IMG/VR virus record: IMGVR_UViG_3300002760_000007 | Location: 1 to 20,517 of that record | Length of the DNA: 20,517 nucleotides | Reading direction: 5' to 3' (one strand) | From: a virus | Part shown: piece after piece, positions 3,346 to 13,039 of the stretch | Numbering within the stretch: position 1 is the stretch's first letter | Layout: each line of letters begins with the position of its first letter | The notes under the pieces: generated by a model | Seen by the model: the letters and a program-made list of their open reading frames with translations, nothing else | What the model was told of the DNA's origin: nothing | Database searches by the model: none | Position numbers and translations under genes: made by a program

Positions 3346-3883
3346 GTCTGTTTCCTATATGTCGTTGTTCAATTTCGCGGTCGATTTTATCAGACGCATC
3401 TTGCGCTACTAATTTAGCACGCTCCTTTCGGATACGCTCTTTCTGTTCAGATGTACTTACGTCATCTCGTTTTATTAACCCACTCTCTAACTGTTTATCG
3501 ATATTAGGCTTAATGGTAGTGTATGGACTTGCCGCTGTTCCTTTAAGTTGGTCGTCTCCATCCACAGCCTTTTGAGCTTCCTCAATCTGCAGTCCCATCC
3601 ACTTATGCTCTGCCTCAGCGAGTGCTGTAGTGTAGTGAGGGTTATGCGAACCATCCTCGAAATTGCCCCTCACTCGCATAGTCGGAATGGAGTCTACATC
3701 AATAACAAACTCGGCATCCTCTCCACACTTATAAGGGCATGGCATCCCTGACGGGACCATCTCAGGGGGTGTGCGCCAATTAGCATGGAAGTATGTATTC
3801 CCTTTACACTCTGTGTCCGGACACCAAAACCTAAAGCGAGTTTTCGCGTTAGTGTTCTTATCCCCCGGTTCTTCCATAGCCAT
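3335..3883 (-). CDS. Hypothetical protein with N-terminal zinc ribbon
   Basis: I do not recognise this 182-aa protein. Residues 21-53 hold two cysteine pairs (C21-x4-C26 and C49-x3-C53) with aromatic residues between, which looks like a zinc ribbon. The rest is charged and helical, with a basic/acidic repeat of K, R, E and D from about 145 to the end. Two ATGs lie 6 nt apart (residues 1 and 3). The first is preferred because a TATAAT hexamer sits exactly 5 nt upstream, the same arrangement as at five other starts in this window. That suggests a leaderless message and a promoter for the downstream dut-helicase-SSB genes. A DNA- or RNA-binding regulator is possible but unproven. Confidence 0.72.
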   Translation of the reverse strand: MAMEEPGDKNTNAKTRFRFWCPDTECKGNTYFHANWRTPPEMVPSGMPCPYKCGEDAEFVIDVDSIPTMRVRGNFEDGSHNPHYTTALAEAEHKWMGLQIEEAQKAVDGDDQLKGTAASPYTTIKPNIDKQLESGLIKRDDVSTSEQKERIRKERAKLVAQDASDKIDREIEQRHIGNRHDG

Positions 3884-3895
3884 AACTTATTATAG
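3884..3895 (-). promoter_or_regulatory. Internal leaderless-type promoter of the replication operon
   Basis: On the minus strand the gap between the nrdJ stop and the next gene reads ACTATAATAAGTT before the ATG. The hexamer TATAAT (3889-3894) ends exactly 5 nt before the start codon, so initiation at the usual distance would fall on or next to the A of ATG. No TTGACA-like -35 is present at 16-18 nt upstream. It would allow dut, helicase and SSB to be expressed apart from the upstream genes. Confidence 0.6.
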
Positions 3896-3902
3896 TCCCG
3901 GG

Positions 3903-5807
3903 TTACAATTCACAGACGCCATTTATGCATGTTTCTATTGATTGGGCTTGCTCTTCGATTTTTCCCTCGATAATAAGCTTGTCCAAATCAATAGAGTTAA
4001 TATCTACAGCTTCCAACGGTTCATTTCCTCTAGACCCAGCACGATAGAATGTAAATCCTTTCATGTCTCCGGCATACATTAAGAGGTCGTCGTAGAGGTT
4101 GGAGGGTTCGTATCCTGCTGGGAGGTTACACGTTTTAGAAACCGCTGAATCAATGTATGATTGTACAACCGCTTGAACCTTGATATGTTCTTCTGCTGTA
4201 ACATCATAAGCGCCCACACAGTGTGAAACGTCACGACCTCTAAGATGTAAGTCCTTAAAGAGAGGGTCCACCACAATAGTTTCATTCCAGACACCATCAG
4301 TGCCAGTACGCCAACGACGTTTATAGACAGGGGCGAATATCGGTTCCAGACCAGTACTAACACCCAAGACCATAGAGATAGTTCCAGTTGGAGCGACCGT
4401 GAGTAGCACCGCGTTACGAAGTCCGTTCTTTTTGATATCTGAGCGGATTCGAGAGGGTAAGGTTTTAAAGAACTTTTCATCTTTTAGTTTGTGCCAGTCG
4501 TAAGCGGCGAAGCTTCCTTTCTCGCGACCCAAGTACATGGAGGCTTTGTAGGCTTCATTTCTTATCGTAGCGAATAACCGTTCCAAGAACTCAAGGCAGT
4601 CTTCTGACCCGTATTTATGACCCGCTTTAATGAGAAAATAGTGTAATCCTGTAATCCCTAATCCAATTCTTCGGGAACGCATCCCCGCTTCATCACACTC
4701 GGGAATCGGAAAATGGTTCGCAGTAAGGATATTATCTAAGAACCTAGTCCCTGTACGAATCGTACGAGCCATCCTACGCCAGTCGATAGTGCCGTCCATA
4801 TCCACCATGTTAGCAAGATTGACATGACCAAGACAACAATTACCATAGGCAGGAAGAACTTCCTCCCCACACGGGTTAGTAGAAGGCATATGCTCAAAAT
4901 AAGAAACGTTAGTGTATTCATTAGCAAAATCAATATTAAAAATTCCAGGTTCCCCTGATTCGATAGCATTATCTACAATGCGCTCCCAAAGGTCACGTGC
5001 TAGGATTTCCTTCTTCGTGGCTTTTGTAAATGTGTCTGCGTAGTGTTTAAGATGGTGTAGCTTGGCACGTCCAAGTGCATCCTCCTCAGTTTTAGCAACA
5101 ACCTCGACAGTGGCATTGCCTTCCTGGGAAATCCGCTCTACGTCATAAACAAAGTATTTATTCTGTCTTCCTCCAAATGTAAAGTGCCACTCTTCATTCT
5201 TTTCAACAGCTTCAATAAACCTTTTAGTGATTGCAACAGAAATGTTAAAGTTAGTAAGTTCTTTACGGTCTAACTTAACGTGGAGAAATTCCAAGAAGTC
5301 CGGGTGGGTAATATCTAGTATAGACATTAACGCAGTTCTACGATTTTTTCCTGCACGCACATGATTTCCAATCTCATTAATCATACGCATCACTGAGATA
5401 GACCCAGGAGCGGAGTTCTTAATATTTTGGATGTTATCGCCCTTAGGTCGAATCTTAGAGAAGTTAAAGCCAATGCCCCCACCCCCACAAGAAATCTTGT
5501 ACATGTCTGAGATAACTTTGCCAATACTGTCCACAGAATCCTCAGGGTCTAGTACGTAGCAGTTAAGCATATTTTGGTGGCTTCTTCCCGACCCGTAAAG
5601 GATGCGACCTCCGGGGCAAAAGTCTCCACTGTTAATAGCTTCGTAGAACTTCTGCTCGAACTTCTCTCTGTTTTCAGGGAATTCCGGGTCAGCTGCTGTC
5701 TTAGCGACACGCTTCGCACATTCTTTCCAGGAGTTCTCTCCCGGGTAGGCATACTTATCCATGAAAATGGTCTCCCCGAGGGAGCCTTCTTTAATTTCAA
5801 ATGCCAT
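3903..5807 (-). CDS. nrdJ: Ribonucleotide reductase, class II (adenosylcobalamin-dependent)
   Basis: This enzyme reduces ribonucleotides to deoxyribonucleotides for phage DNA synthesis. The 634-aa protein has the RNR catalytic barrel: cysteine C83 in L-N-C-Y, the thiyl-radical triad N311-P-C313-G-E315, and the partner cysteine at 324 or 325 in G-N-C-C-L. It also has the phosphate loop A-P-T-G-T-I-S near 465-475 and a C-terminal redox pair C627-x4-C632. There is no N-terminal ATP cone and no NrdB-like small subunit nearby. The length and C-terminal cysteines fit B12-dependent class II. Between residues about 212 and 262 there is an extra segment where related enzymes run almost directly into the next helix. 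The start is a TAATG overlap with the GroES-like gene, with GGAG upstream. Confidence 0.93.
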   Translation of the reverse strand: MAFEIKEGSLGETIFMDKYAYPGENSWKECAKRVAKTAADPEFPENREKFEQKFYEAINSGDFCPGGRILYGSGRSHQNMLNCYVLDPEDSVDSIGKVISDMYKISCGGGGIGFNFSKIRPKGDNIQNIKNSAPGSISVMRMINEIGNHVRAGKNRRTALMSILDITHPDFLEFLHVKLDRKELTNFNISVAITKRFIEAVEKNEEWHFTFGGRQNKYFVYDVERISQEGNATVEVVAKTEEDALGRAKLHHLKHYADTFTKATKKEILARDLWERIVDNAIESGEPGIFNIDFANEYTNVSYFEHMPSTNPCGEEVLPAYGNCCLGHVNLANMVDMDGTIDWRRMARTIRTGTRFLDNILTANHFPIPECDEAGMRSRRIGLGITGLHYFLIKAGHKYGSEDCLEFLERLFATIRNEAYKASMYLGREKGSFAAYDWHKLKDEKFFKTLPSRIRSDIKKNGLRNAVLLTVAPTGTISMVLGVSTGLEPIFAPVYKRRWRTGTDGVWNETIVVDPLFKDLHLRGRDVSHCVGAYDVTAEEHIKVQAVVQSYIDSAVSKTCNLPAGYEPSNLYDDLLMYAGDMKGFTFYRAGSRGNEPLEAVDINSIDLDKLIIEGKIEEQAQSIETCINGVCEL

Positions 5808-6091
5808 TATTCGTTCTCCGTATCCCAGCCGTAAACCAAAACATCTTCTTCTGGTAGAACGAGGTAGATGTCTTCATCCACACTAATTTCTTGACCTGCA
5901 AACTGGGCAAAGATAACGTGCATCCCTTCCTCCCAGTGGTCACTCTTACACCCAGCCCCAATACGTTCTACATAGCCTTCACTAAGCTTTTTCGCGGTTA
6001 TCTGGTCGGGCATAATAATGCCAAATTTAGATTTTAGCTCGTGTTTTTTACGAGTAACTATGAGTCTTGTTCCGTTGGGGATGTATTTCAT
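5807..6091 (-). CDS. groES: GroES-like co-chaperonin (T4 gp31 functional counterpart)
   Basis: The 94-aa protein follows the Cpn10/GroES fold in order. It has an N-terminal strand N-G-T-R-L-I-V, a mobile-loop region ending in the conserved G-I-I-M-P-D, then E-G-Y-V-E-R-I-G-A-G and V-I-F-A-Q-F-A-G-Q-E-I. The roof-to-end strands are D-I-Y-L-V-L-P-E-E-D-V-L-V-Y. Bacterial GroES is about 97 aa. It would cap host GroEL and help fold phage proteins; T4 gp31 and RB49 CocO do this for the major capsid protein. Its TAATG overlap with nrdJ suggests the two are translated together, so the reductase may also be a client. The assignment rests on the whole pattern; the mobile loop sequence itself is divergent. 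Confidence 0.85.
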   Translation of the reverse strand: MKYIPNGTRLIVTRKKHELKSKFGIIMPDQITAKKLSEGYVERIGAGCKSDHWEEGMHVIFAQFAGQEISVDEDIYLVLPEEDVLVYGWDTENE

Positions 6092-7715: not shown

Positions 7716-8721
7716 CTTTAATCTCCTTGAGCCCTGCCATCAATGCTTTCTTATCAAACACTGTGTCACTGGCGTTGATGTAGTCATCGATTACCTTGTC
7801 GTCAAGGCTGAAGATGCGGTTCTTAGGTATGTAACCGGATTCGAACTTGGGAAGTACATCCTCGAACACAAGTTCCAAGCTTTGTATAGGGTACTCAGCG
7901 AATATCTCATCCTTCAACCGTTGCTCAGTGTAAGAATCTAGCTTATCCATCTTCACACGGAGGATGGTGAAGAAATCTTCAAACTTGTGCTTCTTAGCAA
8001 GTTCAGGAATCTCATCAATGGTTCCCACGATATGTTTGATGCCTCTTCCGATAGGCTTTTTAATAAGCTCTATCTCTTGGTCGCGTATTACCAATTCGTG
8101 CACGAATTTTTGTGCGTTGGCTTCTCCGAAAGTATTAGAGTATGCTGTACCTAAAATAACAATGTTGTCATAGATTTTAGGTTTGTGGATGTGTCCGAGA
8201 AAGGCGAAAGGCTTCTTCTTAAAGTGCCATCTCTTTACACGGGCTTCATATGCATAGCTCCCATTGGAAACACATCCATCAAAACCAAAGTGACCAAACA
8301 CAGGGTTCTTAGTTTTCTTGAGGTCAGCGATGATTCTATCCTCGTCCTCGTAGTGGGGGATGAAATCAAAGTCTACCGCCCCAAGCCTAATGGTCTCAGT
8401 ATCTTTAACGATACGGGCTTTCTCCGAAAAGAGAGAAAGAATAGTATCTGAAGTTCCATCCTTACGAAGGGTGTCATGGTTACCTCTATTTACGATAATA
8501 TTTTTACATTCAATATTGTCTAACAAGTAACCAAAAGCGAGCAGTTCCTCACTTCTAGGGTTTCTACGCTCAAACACATCGCCATTGATAACGACGTGGG
8601 AACAGGGCTTACGATTAGCTAAATGGAGAAGAGTCTCCACTTGCGCATCGAGGAACCCAGGGAAATAATCTGCACGTAAATGCAAATCTGTAAGGATAAC
8701 AACTTTAGCGGGTTTCGACAT
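7702..8721 (-). CDS. gp47: Recombination nuclease subunit, Mre11/SbcD/gp47-like
   Basis: This calcineurin-like metallophosphoesterase is the nuclease partner of the gp46-like ATPase. The 339-aa protein shows all metal-ligand motifs in order: T-D-L-H-L (D12, H14), N-G-D-V-F (D48), R-G-N-H-D (N81, H82), G-H-F-G (H144) and G-H-I-H (H177, H179). T4 gp47 is 339 aa, the same length. It overlaps the polymerase gene end by 17 nt and the gp46 start by 14 nt, so the three are tightly co-translated. The complex would resect DNA ends to give 3' single strands for recombination-primed replication. Confidence 0.95.
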   Translation of the reverse strand: MSKPAKVVILTDLHLRADYFPGFLDAQVETLLHLANRKPCSHVVINGDVFERRNPRSEELLAFGYLLDNIECKNIIVNRGNHDTLRKDGTSDTILSLFSEKARIVKDTETIRLGAVDFDFIPHYEDEDRIIADLKKTKNPVFGHFGFDGCVSNGSYAYEARVKRWHFKKKPFAFLGHIHKPKIYDNIVILGTAYSNTFGEANAQKFVHELVIRDQEIELIKKPIGRGIKHIVGTIDEIPELAKKHKFEDFFTILRVKMDKLDSYTEQRLKDEIFAEYPIQSLELVFEDVLPKFESGYIPKNRIFSLDDKVIDDYINASDTVFDKKALMAGLKEIKDAVK

Positions 8722-10219
8722 AGTCTATAATTTCTGCTTTATTAAGCAACTGTCCTTTACCGTTAAACTCGACATCAATCATATCTCCAAAGGAGCGTCC
8801 TGCCTCAACATCAACGGCAAAAGGAACAACAAAGTCCAAACCATACAACCCTTTAAAATCTTCAGTACTCTCAAGAGCATAACGCATCAGTTCAACAACT
8901 TTCTGTAGGTCTTTCTTGGAGCATTGCACTTCAACTGAGTCGTGGACCGTAGCCAGAATCTGCGCGTCTAAACCTGTAGCTTCTAGGTATTTTTGCAAAC
9001 GCAGAATTGAGTGAAGCATTAAGTCCGAAGCGGAACTTTGGATTACAAAGTTCATACCTTGTCGCAGAGCGCGATACTGGTACTTCCTATTTGGGCTTGT
9101 TACATTGGGGAGGTGTCTCCTACGTCCAAAAATACTTACCGCGTAGCCGTTCTTCTTCACAAACTTATGTACGAAGTCAATCCAGTCAAAAACTTTTGGG
9201 AAGGAGTCTTGATAAGCTTTGAAAATATTCTTGCAGTATCCTACCGACTTACCTATCTGCTCAGATAGTTTGTGTGGACCCCCTCCGTAAACAATTAGAA
9301 AGCTAACACTCTTTGCAATCTGTCTTTCTTGCTTGGTGACATCCTTGGCATCCTTGCCAAATACAAGGGATGCCGTGAAGCTGTGCAAGTCCTGTCCGGA
9401 GTTAAACGCTTCGATAAGGTTTCTGTCCCTACAGCACTGAGCAAGTACTCGTAACTCTGCTTGAGAGAAGTCAGCGGCAACGAAGACTTTGTCCTTATCG
9501 GCTGTCATCATGCTTCGCAGATTGATTGGGTCATCTTCGTCAGGACGGGGTAAGGTGTGGAAGGAAATACCTTTACGGTCTTTGCCTACTGAGTACGTAG
9601 AACAACTCAGGCGACCCGTTACTACATTACCGAAGTTGTAACTAGAGTAAACTCTACCGTCCTCGTTGTAGGCGGTGGCTTTTTCAACCCCCTTAACATA
9701 TGTCTTGTGTTGCTTTACGCGACCTTTGTACTTAAGCAGTAGCTCAATATACTCTTTCGCATCTCCTGTAGCAGTAACAGCTACTTTCTGCAAATGAGCT
9801 TCAGTGATTGAGGGTGCTTTTGTTTTTTTGGAAAACTCCACGGCTTTTAACCCGAAACCTTCTTTAGAGAAGAGCAATAGACCCATGTCCGCGTTGGACT
9901 TCGGATTAACATCGTCAATCACTGATAGCTCGAAAAGCTTCGTTTCGAGCTCTCCAACCTCTTTGGTTAATAATTCGTCGAAACGAGATACACAGGCGGA
10001 GTCTACTAAAATGCCACGATGTTCTACGTCTGACGCTACGACAAGAATCTTTTTGAGGAGTTTTTCGTAAACGTGGTTTACCCCTTTCTTGTTCATTTCC
10101 ACAATCATGTTGGAGTGGGCGCGTAAAGTGAAATCCGCATCCATAGCGTTTCCCAACGCCATTTCGTCCAGTGGCATGTTTGCCCAATCATGGGTCCCTC
10201 CATCAGTTACTGTTAGCAT
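8705..10219 (-). CDS. polA: DNA polymerase I family, polymerase half with Exo III motif (split PolA)
   Basis: This 504-aa protein is the polymerase domain of a family A replicase. Motif A is at 250-257 (DFSQAELR). Motif B runs from R299 through K303 and F307 to Y311-G312. The G-R-R-R-H-L-P segment is at 365-371 and motif C is H426-D427-S428. Residue F307 matches E. coli Phe762. The first 35 residues are not polymerase: P-L-D-E-M ... A-M-D-A-D-F-T-L-R-A-H (D27) matches the Exo III end of a PolA 3'-5' exonuclease domain. The rest of that domain is in the gene at 11383-12354. The usual Exo III tyrosine is replaced by glycine. The start overlaps the 62-aa gene by 17 nt; a second in-frame ATG at residue 15 is possible. 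Confidence 0.93.
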   Translation of the reverse strand: MLTVTDGGTHDWANMPLDEMALGNAMDADFTLRAHSNMIVEMNKKGVNHVYEKLLKKILVVASDVEHRGILVDSACVSRFDELLTKEVGELETKLFELSVIDDVNPKSNADMGLLLFSKEGFGLKAVEFSKKTKAPSITEAHLQKVAVTATGDAKEYIELLLKYKGRVKQHKTYVKGVEKATAYNEDGRVYSSYNFGNVVTGRLSCSTYSVGKDRKGISFHTLPRPDEDDPINLRSMMTADKDKVFVAADFSQAELRVLAQCCRDRNLIEAFNSGQDLHSFTASLVFGKDAKDVTKQERQIAKSVSFLIVYGGGPHKLSEQIGKSVGYCKNIFKAYQDSFPKVFDWIDFVHKFVKKNGYAVSIFGRRRHLPNVTSPNRKYQYRALRQGMNFVIQSSASDLMLHSILRLQKYLEATGLDAQILATVHDSVEVQCSKKDLQKVVELMRYALESTEDFKGLYGLDFVVPFAVDVEAGRSFGDMIDVEFNGKGQLLNKAEIIDYVETR

Positions 10220-10391
10220 CTTTTAATTCTTTTATTATGTGTCCTAGTTCAAAAATCATATTAACGTAGTGTACGTTAGATTTATAATCCTGTTGGGTAA
10301 CTTCCCCCGCTTTCATAATAGCGTCGCGGTACTCATTTAGAGCACGAATTACCTCATCAATTAATCCGGGGGGGAGCCCACCTTTTATCAT
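10203..10391 (-). CDS. Small hypothetical protein between glutamine synthetase and polymerase
   Basis: The 62-aa protein has no family I recognise. It reads as two helices joined by a short polar loop (about 8-30 and 36-58), with charged and hydrophobic residues alternating as in a helical hairpin. Its start forms TAATG with the glutamine synthetase stop and its end overlaps the polymerase start by 17 nt. It is therefore locked into the operon by overlaps on both sides, which supports it being real. It lies inside the gap that splits PolA, and may have arrived with the glutamine synthetase or been there before. Confidence 0.65.
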   Translation of the reverse strand: MIKGGLPPGLIDEVIRALNEYRDAIMKAGEVTQQDYKSNVHYVNMIFELGHIIKELKDANSN

Positions 10392-11383
10392 TAGGCTAGA
10401 GTTTCCAAAAGCTTAGATGTTACAAGGTAAGGGTCACAAGTAGCTGCCGGACGACGGTCCTCAAAGTAACCACACTCATCAACGTGTACATGGGCTGGAA
10501 TACGAACGCTTGCGCTACGGTCACCGACACCCCAAGAAAATTCATCGTAACTAGATGTCTCGCATTCACCAGTAAGGCGTAGGTCGTTTCCTGCACCGTA
10601 GATGTTGATATGCTCTAAGTGAGTATCCTTCAACTTGTCCATCATTATCTCAATCTCCTTAAAACCACCTTTCTTGCGCGTCTTTTCAGTTGATACATTA
10701 ACATGACAGCCAGCACCGTTCAGACTTGGGTAAATCTTTGGGTGGTATGAGATTCTCATGTTAAACTTCTCACTGCCTTTTTGTAAGATGTAGCGCGACA
10801 TCCATAGGTCGTCGGATACTTTAAGAGCGGGTTCAGGGTTAGTTTGGTACTCCCATTGAGAAATCATTACTTCAGCATTACTACCGAACAAAGTGATGCC
10901 CGCTTTATCGCAGTTTACTAAATGCTCATCCGCAATTAAACGCCCAATAACATTACCTGCACCTACACCGCAGTAGAAATCTCCCTGCTTAATGTCTTCT
11001 GGTACAAGGGGTTGCATCATCGGGTCTACAAAAGTATACTCTTGCTCAAACCCGAAAAGAGTCTCTGTATCGATGTGCTGAAGTTCGGTATCAATTTGGG
11101 CAGCAAGCACGTTCCGCATATTAGATTCATGGGGAGTACCGTCAGGGTTCATAACCTCGCACAGTACCATGTAATTACCCTCATTAAAAGGGTTCTTGTA
11201 TAACCGTACCGGTTTTAGCTTTCGGTCAGAGTCTTCCAAATCTCCTTGTCCGGTGCTACCACCGTCAAAAGACCATTCAGGCAGTTCAGCCAAAGCGTAT
11301 TTTTCAGAAAAGACTCTCGTCTTTGAACGTAGTTGGGGCATATCTACAGACCCATCTAACCATATATATTCTACTGTAATCAT
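10391..11383 (-). CDS. glnII: Glutamine synthetase, GSII (eukaryote-type/GlnII) family
   Basis: Glutamine synthetase makes glutamine from glutamate, ammonia and ATP. The 330-aa protein matches the short GSII type along its length. Visible are the N-terminal W-S-F-D-G-G-S-T-G-Q (37-46), metal-site F-G-F-E-Q-E-Y (E113, E115), N-A-E-V with E171 and Q-W-E-Y, N-G-A-G-C-H (222-227), R-L-T-G-E-C-E-T, S-V-R-I-P (R294), and Y-F-E-D-R-R-P-A (306-313). The flap glutamate E275 is kept, but the preceding residue, normally His in R-L-T-G-x-H-E-T, is Cys274. Typical GSII is about 340-370 aa. Overlaps of TAATG on both sides place it cleanly in the operon, between the two parts of PolA. It may raise glutamine for nucleotide synthesis during infection (inference). 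Confidence 0.93.
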   Translation of the reverse strand: MITVEYIWLDGSVDMPQLRSKTRVFSEKYALAELPEWSFDGGSTGQGDLEDSDRKLKPVRLYKNPFNEGNYMVLCEVMNPDGTPHESNMRNVLAAQIDTELQHIDTETLFGFEQEYTFVDPMMQPLVPEDIKQGDFYCGVGAGNVIGRLIADEHLVNCDKAGITLFGSNAEVMISQWEYQTNPEPALKVSDDLWMSRYILQKGSEKFNMRISYHPKIYPSLNGAGCHVNVSTEKTRKKGGFKEIEIMMDKLKDTHLEHINIYGAGNDLRLTGECETSSYDEFSWGVGDRSASVRIPAHVHVDECGYFEDRRPAATCDPYLVTSKLLETLA

Positions 11384-12354
11384 TAAAATTTCTCCAATTC
11401 CTGGGGGAAGTACTCCTTCACTAAATCCATAAGACCATGAGGAAGATTTTCATCGAGTAGCGAGTGCATAATTTTTGTATCCCCAATATTGTGAAATTCA
11501 TTTATCCCATAGGTCTTCATGAATTTAATATCAAATTGGCAGTTATGAAAAATTTTCTCGATATTTTTATTTGCCATTAAAGCACTTAATCTTTGTTTGA
11601 TAAGTTCTTTGTCTACATCATCGAATGGACTTTCACGATGATTGATTGGTACGGTAAAAGCTTTATTTTCACCGTAAGAAAATGCTATAGTCGACATATC
11701 ATCCTTTTTAAAGTCGAGTCCAGTCGTCTCGATATCCGCGCCGAGGCAAGAGTATTGCTCTGCTAAATCCATCTGCTCATTAAACTCTGCGATGGTTTTA
11801 CAAAGTACATAACCCGTACCATCAAATTTATTTTTATTTAAAATGAACTTATCGTAGGCGTTGTTTACGTCCTGAACGAACAGCTTACGTAACTTAGGTT
11901 CGAGGAATACAAGCTCCGAGCTGTACGTAGGTACCACAGGGCATCCCTCGTACTCAAACTCTTTCCCCCGCTTATTAAATAGTCCAGACTTCTTGAGGAG
12001 CGTCTTCATAGCCACATTACCTAGAGGGATAATAAGCGTAGGCTTAATCTGTTCTAAATCCTCAAATAGAAAGGGTCTATGGGTATTATAGTCAGCAGTT
12101 GTTAAATCATCCTCTGAGGTATTAGGCTCTCGGATAGCCGGTATAAACTGATAACTACCTTGGGGTACTCCGGTCTTCGCGAGGAGAGTGCTGACAGCTG
12201 TATACTCATGGTCGCAGAAGTCGTAAAGGCTTCCGCGCTCACGATATTGGCAAGTAGTAATGAAAACAATTTTCTCATCGCCAACGCCTGTTGACGAATA
12301 ATCTTTTGTTTTTTCATCTTTCTCGAAATTTTGTAGTAATTTTTCTAAGTCCAT
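11383..12354 (-). CDS. UDG-like domain fused to 3'-5' exonuclease (Exo I-II), N-terminal half of split PolA
   Basis: The 323-aa protein has two parts. Residues about 27-165 resemble a family 4/5 uracil-DNA glycosylase fold (P-T-L-I-I-P-L-G-N-V-A then K-R-G-K and P-V-V-P-T-Y). However, the catalytic G-E-A-P-G motif is replaced (T-T-C-Q-Y, 33-37), and the H-P-S motif reads Y-S-S (144-146). It is therefore probably inactive and structural. Residues 200-323 are a DnaQ-type exonuclease with Exo I D207-I-E209 and Exo II H270-N-C-Q-F-D275. The protein stops just after G-L-M-D-L-V-K-E-Y, before Exo III. Exo III is found at the start of the polymerase gene at 8705-10219. The start follows a hexamer CATAAT by 5 nt and is first in the operon. 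Confidence 0.88.
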   Translation of the reverse strand: MDLEKLLQNFEKDEKTKDYSSTGVGDEKIVFITTCQYRERGSLYDFCDHEYTAVSTLLAKTGVPQGSYQFIPAIREPNTSEDDLTTADYNTHRPFLFEDLEQIKPTLIIPLGNVAMKTLLKKSGLFNKRGKEFEYEGCPVVPTYSSELVFLEPKLRKLFVQDVNNAYDKFILNKNKFDGTGYVLCKTIAEFNEQMDLAEQYSCLGADIETTGLDFKKDDMSTIAFSYGENKAFTVPINHRESPFDDVDKELIKQRLSALMANKNIEKIFHNCQFDIKFMKTYGINEFHNIGDTKIMHSLLDENLPHGLMDLVKEYFPQELEKF

Positions 12355-12369
12355 GTTCTATTATGGGTT
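12355..12369. promoter_or_regulatory. Overlapping bidirectional leaderless-type promoter
   Basis: Only 15 nt separate the two divergent ATGs. On the minus strand CATAAT (12360-12365) ends 5 nt before the ATG of the exonuclease gene. On the plus strand TATTAT (12359-12364) ends 5 nt before the ATG of the gp55-like gene. The two -10-like hexamers overlap by five bases in a near-symmetric TATTATG core. Neither side has room for a leader or a Shine-Dalgarno sequence, so both mRNAs should begin at or next to the ATG. Confidence 0.62.
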
Positions 12370-12738
12370 ATGGCGAAACGTAAAAAGAAGAAACATTATA
12401 TTGATAATAAGAAGTTTGAAGAGACCATTTTTAACTATTTGGAAAATCCAAAAGAGCATGAAGATGAGCTTATCGGGCAACTAGACTTATTAATTACAAG
12501 CATCCTTATATCCTTTAAATTTAAAGTTGAGTTTGATGATGCTAAACAAGAATGTTTCGTGTTGTCTTTGAAAGTCCTTAAAAACTTCACCCGCGAAAAG
12601 GGGTCGGCTTTCAATTACTTCACTACTGTTATAGTGAATAACCTGAAGCTTATTTATACTAAAAATAAGAAATATCAGGAAAAGATTCAACAGTACAGGG
12701 ACAAGAAGATTAAGTCTTTCCTCGAGGAGACTGGGTAG
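12370..12738 (+). CDS. gp55: Late-transcription sigma factor, T4 gp55-like
   Basis: The 122-aa basic protein matches the sigma region 2-like part of T4 gp55. A helix is followed by F-D-D-A-K-Q-E-C (55-62), then V-L-K-N-F-T-R-E-K-G-S-A-F-N-Y-F-T (69-85), V-N-N, and a K-K-Y basic helix. T4 gp55 has the same order (K-Q-E-M, H-N-F-D, N-P-H-A-Y-I-T, K-K-E-R-K-E). T4 gp55 (185 aa) directs RNA polymerase to late promoters that have only a -10 element. This version is shorter, lacking most of the gp55 C-terminus, where T4 carries its clamp-binding tail. It is on the opposite strand from the replication genes and shares their promoter region. Its 3' end overlaps the thioredoxin-like gene tail by 29 nt. 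Confidence 0.8.
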   Translation: MAKRKKKKHYIDNKKFEETIFNYLENPKEHEDELIGQLDLLITSILISFKFKVEFDDAKQECFVLSLKVLKNFTREKGSAFNYFTTVIVNNLKLIYTKNKKYQEKIQQYRDKKIKSFLEETG

Positions 12739-13039
12739 AGAAAAAGGAGTAAATCTTTGGATATTCTATATCCACTCTAACCTTTTTATTTACAAGATGA
12801 ACCAATGAAGGTGCCGATGTTATTGAAAACGATGCGAACGATTCAGGTAGGTCCCAGCTGTTTACTAGGTAAACGGTTTCGTGACCTTCTTGTTCTTTCC
12901 ATACGTCAGCACGTTCAAGAATCTTATCACACCAACCGCACCAAGTTGAGTAGTAGAGGACCGAAAAGTTTTTACGTTTACGGTCCTTCAGTACCTCATT
13001 CAACTCTTGCTCAGTTACTAGCTTGGTCAGACTTCTCAT
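12710..13039 (-). CDS. Thioredoxin/glutaredoxin-like protein
   Basis: The protein has a thioredoxin-type redox site W-C34-G-W-C37 after a core strand (S-V-L-Y-Y-S-T), and a cis-proline segment S-A-P77 about 40 residues later. At 109 aa it is thioredoxin-sized. The start is set at the second ATG (13039) because GGAG lies 6 nt upstream; the longer frame from 13087 adds 16 residues without a ribosome site and runs deep into the preceding gene. C-G-W-C differs from both thioredoxin C-G-P-C and glutaredoxin C-P-Y-C. It could reduce the C-terminal disulfide of NrdJ, but this is inference. It overlaps the acidic protein gene by 29 nt and the gp55-like gene tail by 29 nt on the other strand. Confidence 0.82.
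   Translation of the reverse strand: MRSLTKLVTEQELNEVLKDRKRKNFSVLYYSTWCGWCDKILERADVWKEQEGHETVYLVNSWDLPESFASFSITSAPSLVHLVNKKVRVDIEYPKIYSFFSTQSPRGKT

Follow-up and report, generated by a model that had tools for sequence, protein, structure and literature searches.

A family A DNA polymerase gene of uncultured phages divided between Exo II and Exo III, with probable re-association of the two chains

Can a family A DNA polymerase (PolA) still proofread when its gene is broken inside the 3'-5' exonuclease active site? This question is raised by a 20,517-nucleotide stretch of viral DNA (IMG/VR record IMGVR_UViG_3300002760_000007, positions 1 to 20,517; hereafter the window), which makes up most of a 22,980-bp virus contig. 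Here the polymerase is encoded as an N-terminal piece of 323 aa, EXON (11383..12354, minus strand), and a C-terminal piece of 504 aa, POLC (8705..10219, minus strand), transcribed from the minus strand in the order EXON, glutamine synthetase, 62-aa ORF, POLC, SbcD. The window also encodes SbcC/SbcD-like proteins, a gp32-like SSB, a DnaB-type helicase, a class II RNR, a GroES-like Cpn10, and T4-like tail sheath and tube proteins. A first-pass annotation made from the sequence alone had read the gene pair as a split PolA; its coordinates and open reading frames are correct, and the pair matches PF01612 (EXON, E 1e-19, residues 185-322) and PF00476 (POLC, E 7e-83).

EXON consists of a family-4-UDG-like domain (residues ~1-165) followed by the 3'-5' exonuclease through the helix after Exo II, and ends in ...PHGLMDLVKEYFPQELEKF. 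POLC starts with MLTVTDGGTHDWANMPLDEMALGNAMDADFT and contains the Exo III helix, thumb, palm and fingers, with polymerase motifs A, B and C complete and residues D250, R299, K303, F307, H426 and D427 invariant in 40 sequences. On PHROG 17, EXON aligns to columns 552-785 and POLC to columns 794-1242, while on NCBIfam NF004397 (DNA polymerase I) EXON residues 162-321 align to positions 286-432 and POLC residues 12-479 to 447-887, leaving a gap of about one profile position once the alignments are extended to the chain termini. The stretch between the helix after Exo II (H306) and the Exo III aspartate adds up to 45 residues over the two chains; by hand count it spans 38-50 residues in five phage PolAs that carry it on a single chain. 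Since the halves abut on the profiles and the spacing is in the normal range, little is absent and the cut lies between Exo II and Exo III, within one active site. This bears out the earlier proposal of an almost complete domain broken through its active site, rather than between domains.

Structure prediction agrees with these assignments. AlphaFold2 single-chain models have a mean pLDDT of 84.5 for EXON and 86.7 for POLC, and Foldseek relates POLC to the Bst and Taq PolAs (TMq up to 0.80, rmsd ~2) and EXON to the Klenow exonuclease and family-4 UDGs. Confidence is low at both sides of the cut, with pLDDT of 46-62 over the last 30 residues of EXON and 56 over the first ten of POLC; the poor prediction of the EXON C-terminus on its own is consistent with an absent partner. 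The N-terminal domain of EXON resembles family 4 UDGs in both fold and sequence (Foldseek TMt 0.67 to 1vk2; PF03167, 3e-5; TIGR00758, 4e-7, below its curated cut-off). In far relatives the UDG-like domain carries an N-terminal Cys-rich stretch, for example residues 14-22 of the protein at 3882-4898 of locus L169, which may supply Fe-S ligands; the window protein is without it.

Split genes seen in a single window are often artefacts, which is the general experience that would favour a sequencing or assembly error, or a decayed pseudogene, here. Six scans of viral contigs yielded 202 loci with all parts, amounting to 57 distinct palm sequences, some of them near-identical. The break falls at the identical residue in all 57, which come from many metagenomes, and EXON identity to the window descends to 32-38% in the farthest relatives. 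Where dN/dS could be measured it was ~0.03-0.05 for both EXON and POLC; 22 of 323 EXON positions are invariant across 47 sequences, as are nine of the first 150 positions of POLC across 57. Both genes are thus under strong purifying selection, and a break that recurs in 57 distinct sequences across many metagenomes excludes chance: it is old and common to the whole lineage, and not an accident of the window genome. With polymerase motifs complete as well, artefact and pseudogene were rejected, their probability being negligible, and the sequencing or assembly error against which the first-pass annotation had cautioned is set aside with them. One relative, L037, does have a frame change near residue 285 of EXON (9034-10001), reflecting either an assembly error or a decayed copy.

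The new chain ends are themselves conserved. POLC begins with MLTV across the relatives and the last residue of EXON is aromatic in 49 of 57, a pattern that fits ends in use. The search of related phages for an uninterrupted gene, which had been put forward together with the original reading, found none with both halves in one frame among the 57 relatives of the six scans; exonuclease and polymerase lie on two or three ORFs in every one. Neither did bacterial genome contigs contain an intact gene (best match 30%, in a WOR-3 MAG) or isolate phage records a close homologue (best 28-31%). In a palm tree, made quickly and with long branches meeting, the lineage occupies one side of a branch opposite four intact phage PolAs (100% SH-aLRT).

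The DEDDy site requires four acidic ligands, and all are present, three on EXON and one on POLC. The Exo I ligands D207 (11734..11736, minus strand) and E209 (11728-11730, minus strand) are conserved in all 56 scorable sequences, and the Exo II ligand D275 (11530..11532, minus strand) and the Exo III ligand D27 of POLC (10139..10141, minus strand) in 57/57. All four had been assigned to these positions beforehand, and their distribution between the two chains holds in all scorable relatives. What the first-pass annotation missed is the residue four before the last aspartate, where the DEDDy signature (Y-x3-D) has its catalytic tyrosine: here it is glycine (G23 of POLC; 10151..10153, minus strand), in 57/57. 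The tyrosine is kept in all six phage PolAs inspected, whether intact or otherwise split.

The glycine gives substance to the main rival reading, in which the two chains come together yet proofread poorly or no longer at all, catalysis having been crippled by the Tyr-to-Gly change and EXON serving as a structural or DNA-binding (UDG-like) subunit. In phage Tt72 Pol, a Tyr-to-Ala mutant retains ~4% exonuclease activity, as Asp mutants do (PMC9324360), and dead exonucleases occur in some phage PolAs, such as divPolA1 (PMC11348598). However, divPolA1 has all three catalytic aspartates replaced (PMC11348598), whereas in the present lineage none of the four carboxylates varies, not even D27 on the separate chain, at 32-60% identity. 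Nor may the tyrosine always be catalytic, since in T4 Pol and a T7 model it is directed away from the site (PMC8867116). In this lineage a different residue may have assumed its function, or the tyrosine may be dispensable to the mechanism, or activity may be weak, and the conserved ligands could instead serve metal binding or structure without proofreading. Reassembly and loss of proofreading had been offered at the outset as alternatives. The four invariant ligands, together with dN/dS of ~0.03-0.05 in both genes, favour reassembly, and loss is considered unlikely. It is mainly because of the Tyr-to-Gly change that confidence in active proofreading is moderate: that the two chains associate is very likely, that they form a working composite exonuclease is rather probable, and for proofreading the pieces probably have to join.

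EXON might also be a stand-alone nuclease or glycosylase beside a polymerase that acts without proofreading, as its similarities extend beyond PolA to stand-alone RNase D/NrnC-like exonucleases and it is separated from POLC by other genes in 39/57 relatives. Yet the fourth ligand and the Exo III helix are missing from EXON, and it is exactly this helix and its aspartate that POLC has kept in 57/57, although a free polymerase would have no need of them. This makes an independent EXON improbable.

The genes inside the break differ from the break itself in their distribution. In the window the first is a 330-aa type II glutamine synthetase (GlnII; 10391..11383, minus strand; NF041605, E 1.6e-95), which covers the full length of the model but, at 320 bits, falls short of the curated cut-off of 500. 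The second is the 62-aa ORF (10203..10391, minus strand), which overlaps the POLC start by 17 nt and has homologues in 16 relatives, with dN/dS of 0.23-0.41. Both had been placed in the gap by the first reading, and correctly for the window, but they are neither the cause nor the definition of the break, as 18/57 relatives share it with nothing inside; the inserted genes are for this reason taken as later, variable cargo. By locus count the cargo comprises GlnII (23), the 62-aa family (16), ThyX (5) and a PDDEXK_11 nuclease (5), with rarer cases including a saccharopine dehydrogenase-like gene (three loci) and DUF3310. The tree requires at least eight changes between the states with and without an insert. 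A phrase search of the open-access literature on phage glutamine synthetase gave no match.

Boundaries at the break are tight with or without cargo. In the window a TAATG junction (11381..11385, minus strand) joins the EXON stop, by overlap, to the start codon of the gene that follows; in insert-free relatives the ATG of this junction is the POLC start, mostly in a TAATG or TGATG where stop and start share one base, and in two loci (L093, L095) a single base separates stop from ATG. Relatives with cargo usually show the EXON stop overlapped by the cargo ATG in the same manner. These junctions bear on the possibility that the break was made by a mobile element (the cargo, or a since-lost intron, intein or homing endonuclease), with splicing joining the mature enzyme. 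Phage PolA genes are targets of group I introns (SPO1/Bastille type), according to work cited by PMC10580990, and PDDEXK nucleases occupy the gap in some relatives. Against this, no Rfam match was found in 8600-12500, neighbouring genes overlap by 1 to 17 bases and leave no room, and insert-free relatives have a bare TAATG. An intron or intein in the break was rejected on these grounds, and a split made by a mobile element and mended by splicing is very improbable, although a homing origin of the first break, of which nothing is seen here, is possible.

In 14/57 relatives POLC is itself divided in the thumb, giving a three-piece polymerase. Its first part is ~157 aa and is followed, with a conserved ATGA overlap, by a 370-aa palm/fingers gene (the overlap is found in L043, L044, L045, L125, L137, L155 and L168-L172); in L173, L179, L180, L183 and L184 the thumb break holds a gene resembling kinases of the phosphomevalonate kinase/dNMP kinase type. 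The two three-piece groups are distant in the tree, with three changes in total across the intact, two-piece and three-piece states, so that the thumb break is either old and then lost, or arose twice.

Another polymerase or exonuclease might relieve the split enzyme of its role, and a second complete PolA had been named from the start as evidence against the split reading. None was seen in contigs ranging from 51 to 112 kb. Nine of them (51-102 kb) contain one PF01612 and one PolA locus each, with no second PolA; for G007 and G008, which are three-piece members, the PolA matches are two adjacent pieces; and a single PolA is present in each of the contigs that carry L180 and L184 (100 and 112 kb). 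In eight long contigs, all fragments, no PolB was found and no DnaQ-type exonuclease above cut-off. The weak PF00929 matches, all below cut-off, are to EXON-sized open frames (324-340 aa), and in 3/4 records they fall within the EXON gene. As every genome examined is a fragment, the absence of another polymerase falls short of proof.

Split polymerases as such are already known, and what sets this one apart is where it is cut. An SPO1-like single-chain phage PolA (MW202455) shares the order of UDG-like, exonuclease, thumb, palm and fingers domains, and the motifs; the closest intact homologue in the phage set has 31% identity over the exonuclease. MW202455 is one chain and Goe26 is broken elsewhere, both with tyrosine in Exo III, in contrast to the Exo II/III break and glycine described here. 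The nearest published case is that of the OM43 phages MEP401 and MEP402, in which, as in most of their group, a family A polymerase likewise occupies two ORFs with a small ORF between (PMC10580990). There the first ORF comprises the exonuclease plus the N-terminal portion of DNA_pol_A, the break being inside the polymerase domain, and the authors suspect an intron (PMC10580990); the window break lies instead between Exo II and Exo III. Podovirus MW202554 also has its family A polymerase in two neighbouring genes, but they are divided after Exo III, between the exonuclease and polymerase domains, leaving the exonuclease site on one chain. More distantly, separate polypeptides are expected to be rejoined or to re-associate in the split PolB of phage MIJ3 (PMC6892783), which is of another family and has a split intein where none is present here, and in the minimal split Pol III alpha of jumbo phages (PMC7824862), again of another polymerase family. 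The divPolA1 and divPolA2 enzymes (PMC11348598) are also unusual phage PolAs, with the exonuclease inactivated or absent, whereas the carboxylates are all kept here. In the open-access literature, MEP401 was the only split PolA found, and no report was found of a PolA broken through the exonuclease active site throughout the history of a phage lineage, or of a three-piece PolA.

Taken as a whole, the most probable reading is that of a split family A polymerase whose chains re-associate into a holoenzyme with a composite proofreading site, and it is held with reasonable rather than high confidence. We infer an order of events in which the ancestor of this lineage of uncultured phages, which have gp32-like genes and T4-like genes for sheath and tube, acquired a break in the polymerase gene at the loop that leads from the Exo II helix to the Exo III helix. 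The two pieces would be translated from neighbouring genes, presumably with translational coupling, and would most likely re-associate into one Klenow-like holoenzyme, where D207, E209 and D275 of EXON and D27 of POLC may together form a two-metal 3'-5' exonuclease site. Cargo genes such as GlnII would have entered the ready-made gene boundary later, and in some sublineages the thumb would have been broken too. More tentatively, and short of an even expectation, this may be an obligate multi-subunit replicative PolA with a two-gene proofreading site, a trimer in sister lineages, perhaps a thioredoxin-fold partner, and landing sites for cargo. If the parts do assemble, this would be a naturally split enzyme whose proofreading site is composite. 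Proofreading switchable by subunit supply would become directly testable, as would the replacement of the Exo III tyrosine and the making of a cargo slot by coupled gene fission, and the enzyme would offer natural split points for PolA engineering.

The thioredoxin-fold gene lies upstream of EXON (12710..12997, minus strand) and is syntenic across the lineage; it is a possible accessory factor. It is found just upstream of EXON in 50/57 relatives, several of the others being truncated there. Both CxxC cysteines are kept in only 7/50 homologues (CGWC in the window), and the protein may act in a non-redox role, perhaps with the polymerase. A small opposite-strand gene (12370-12738, plus strand), syntenic in nearly all relatives, has weak similarity to sigma-70 region 2 and is possibly a gp55-like late sigma factor. 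Elsewhere in the window, the GroES-like Cpn10 gene (5807-6091, minus strand) adjoins the class II RNR gene.
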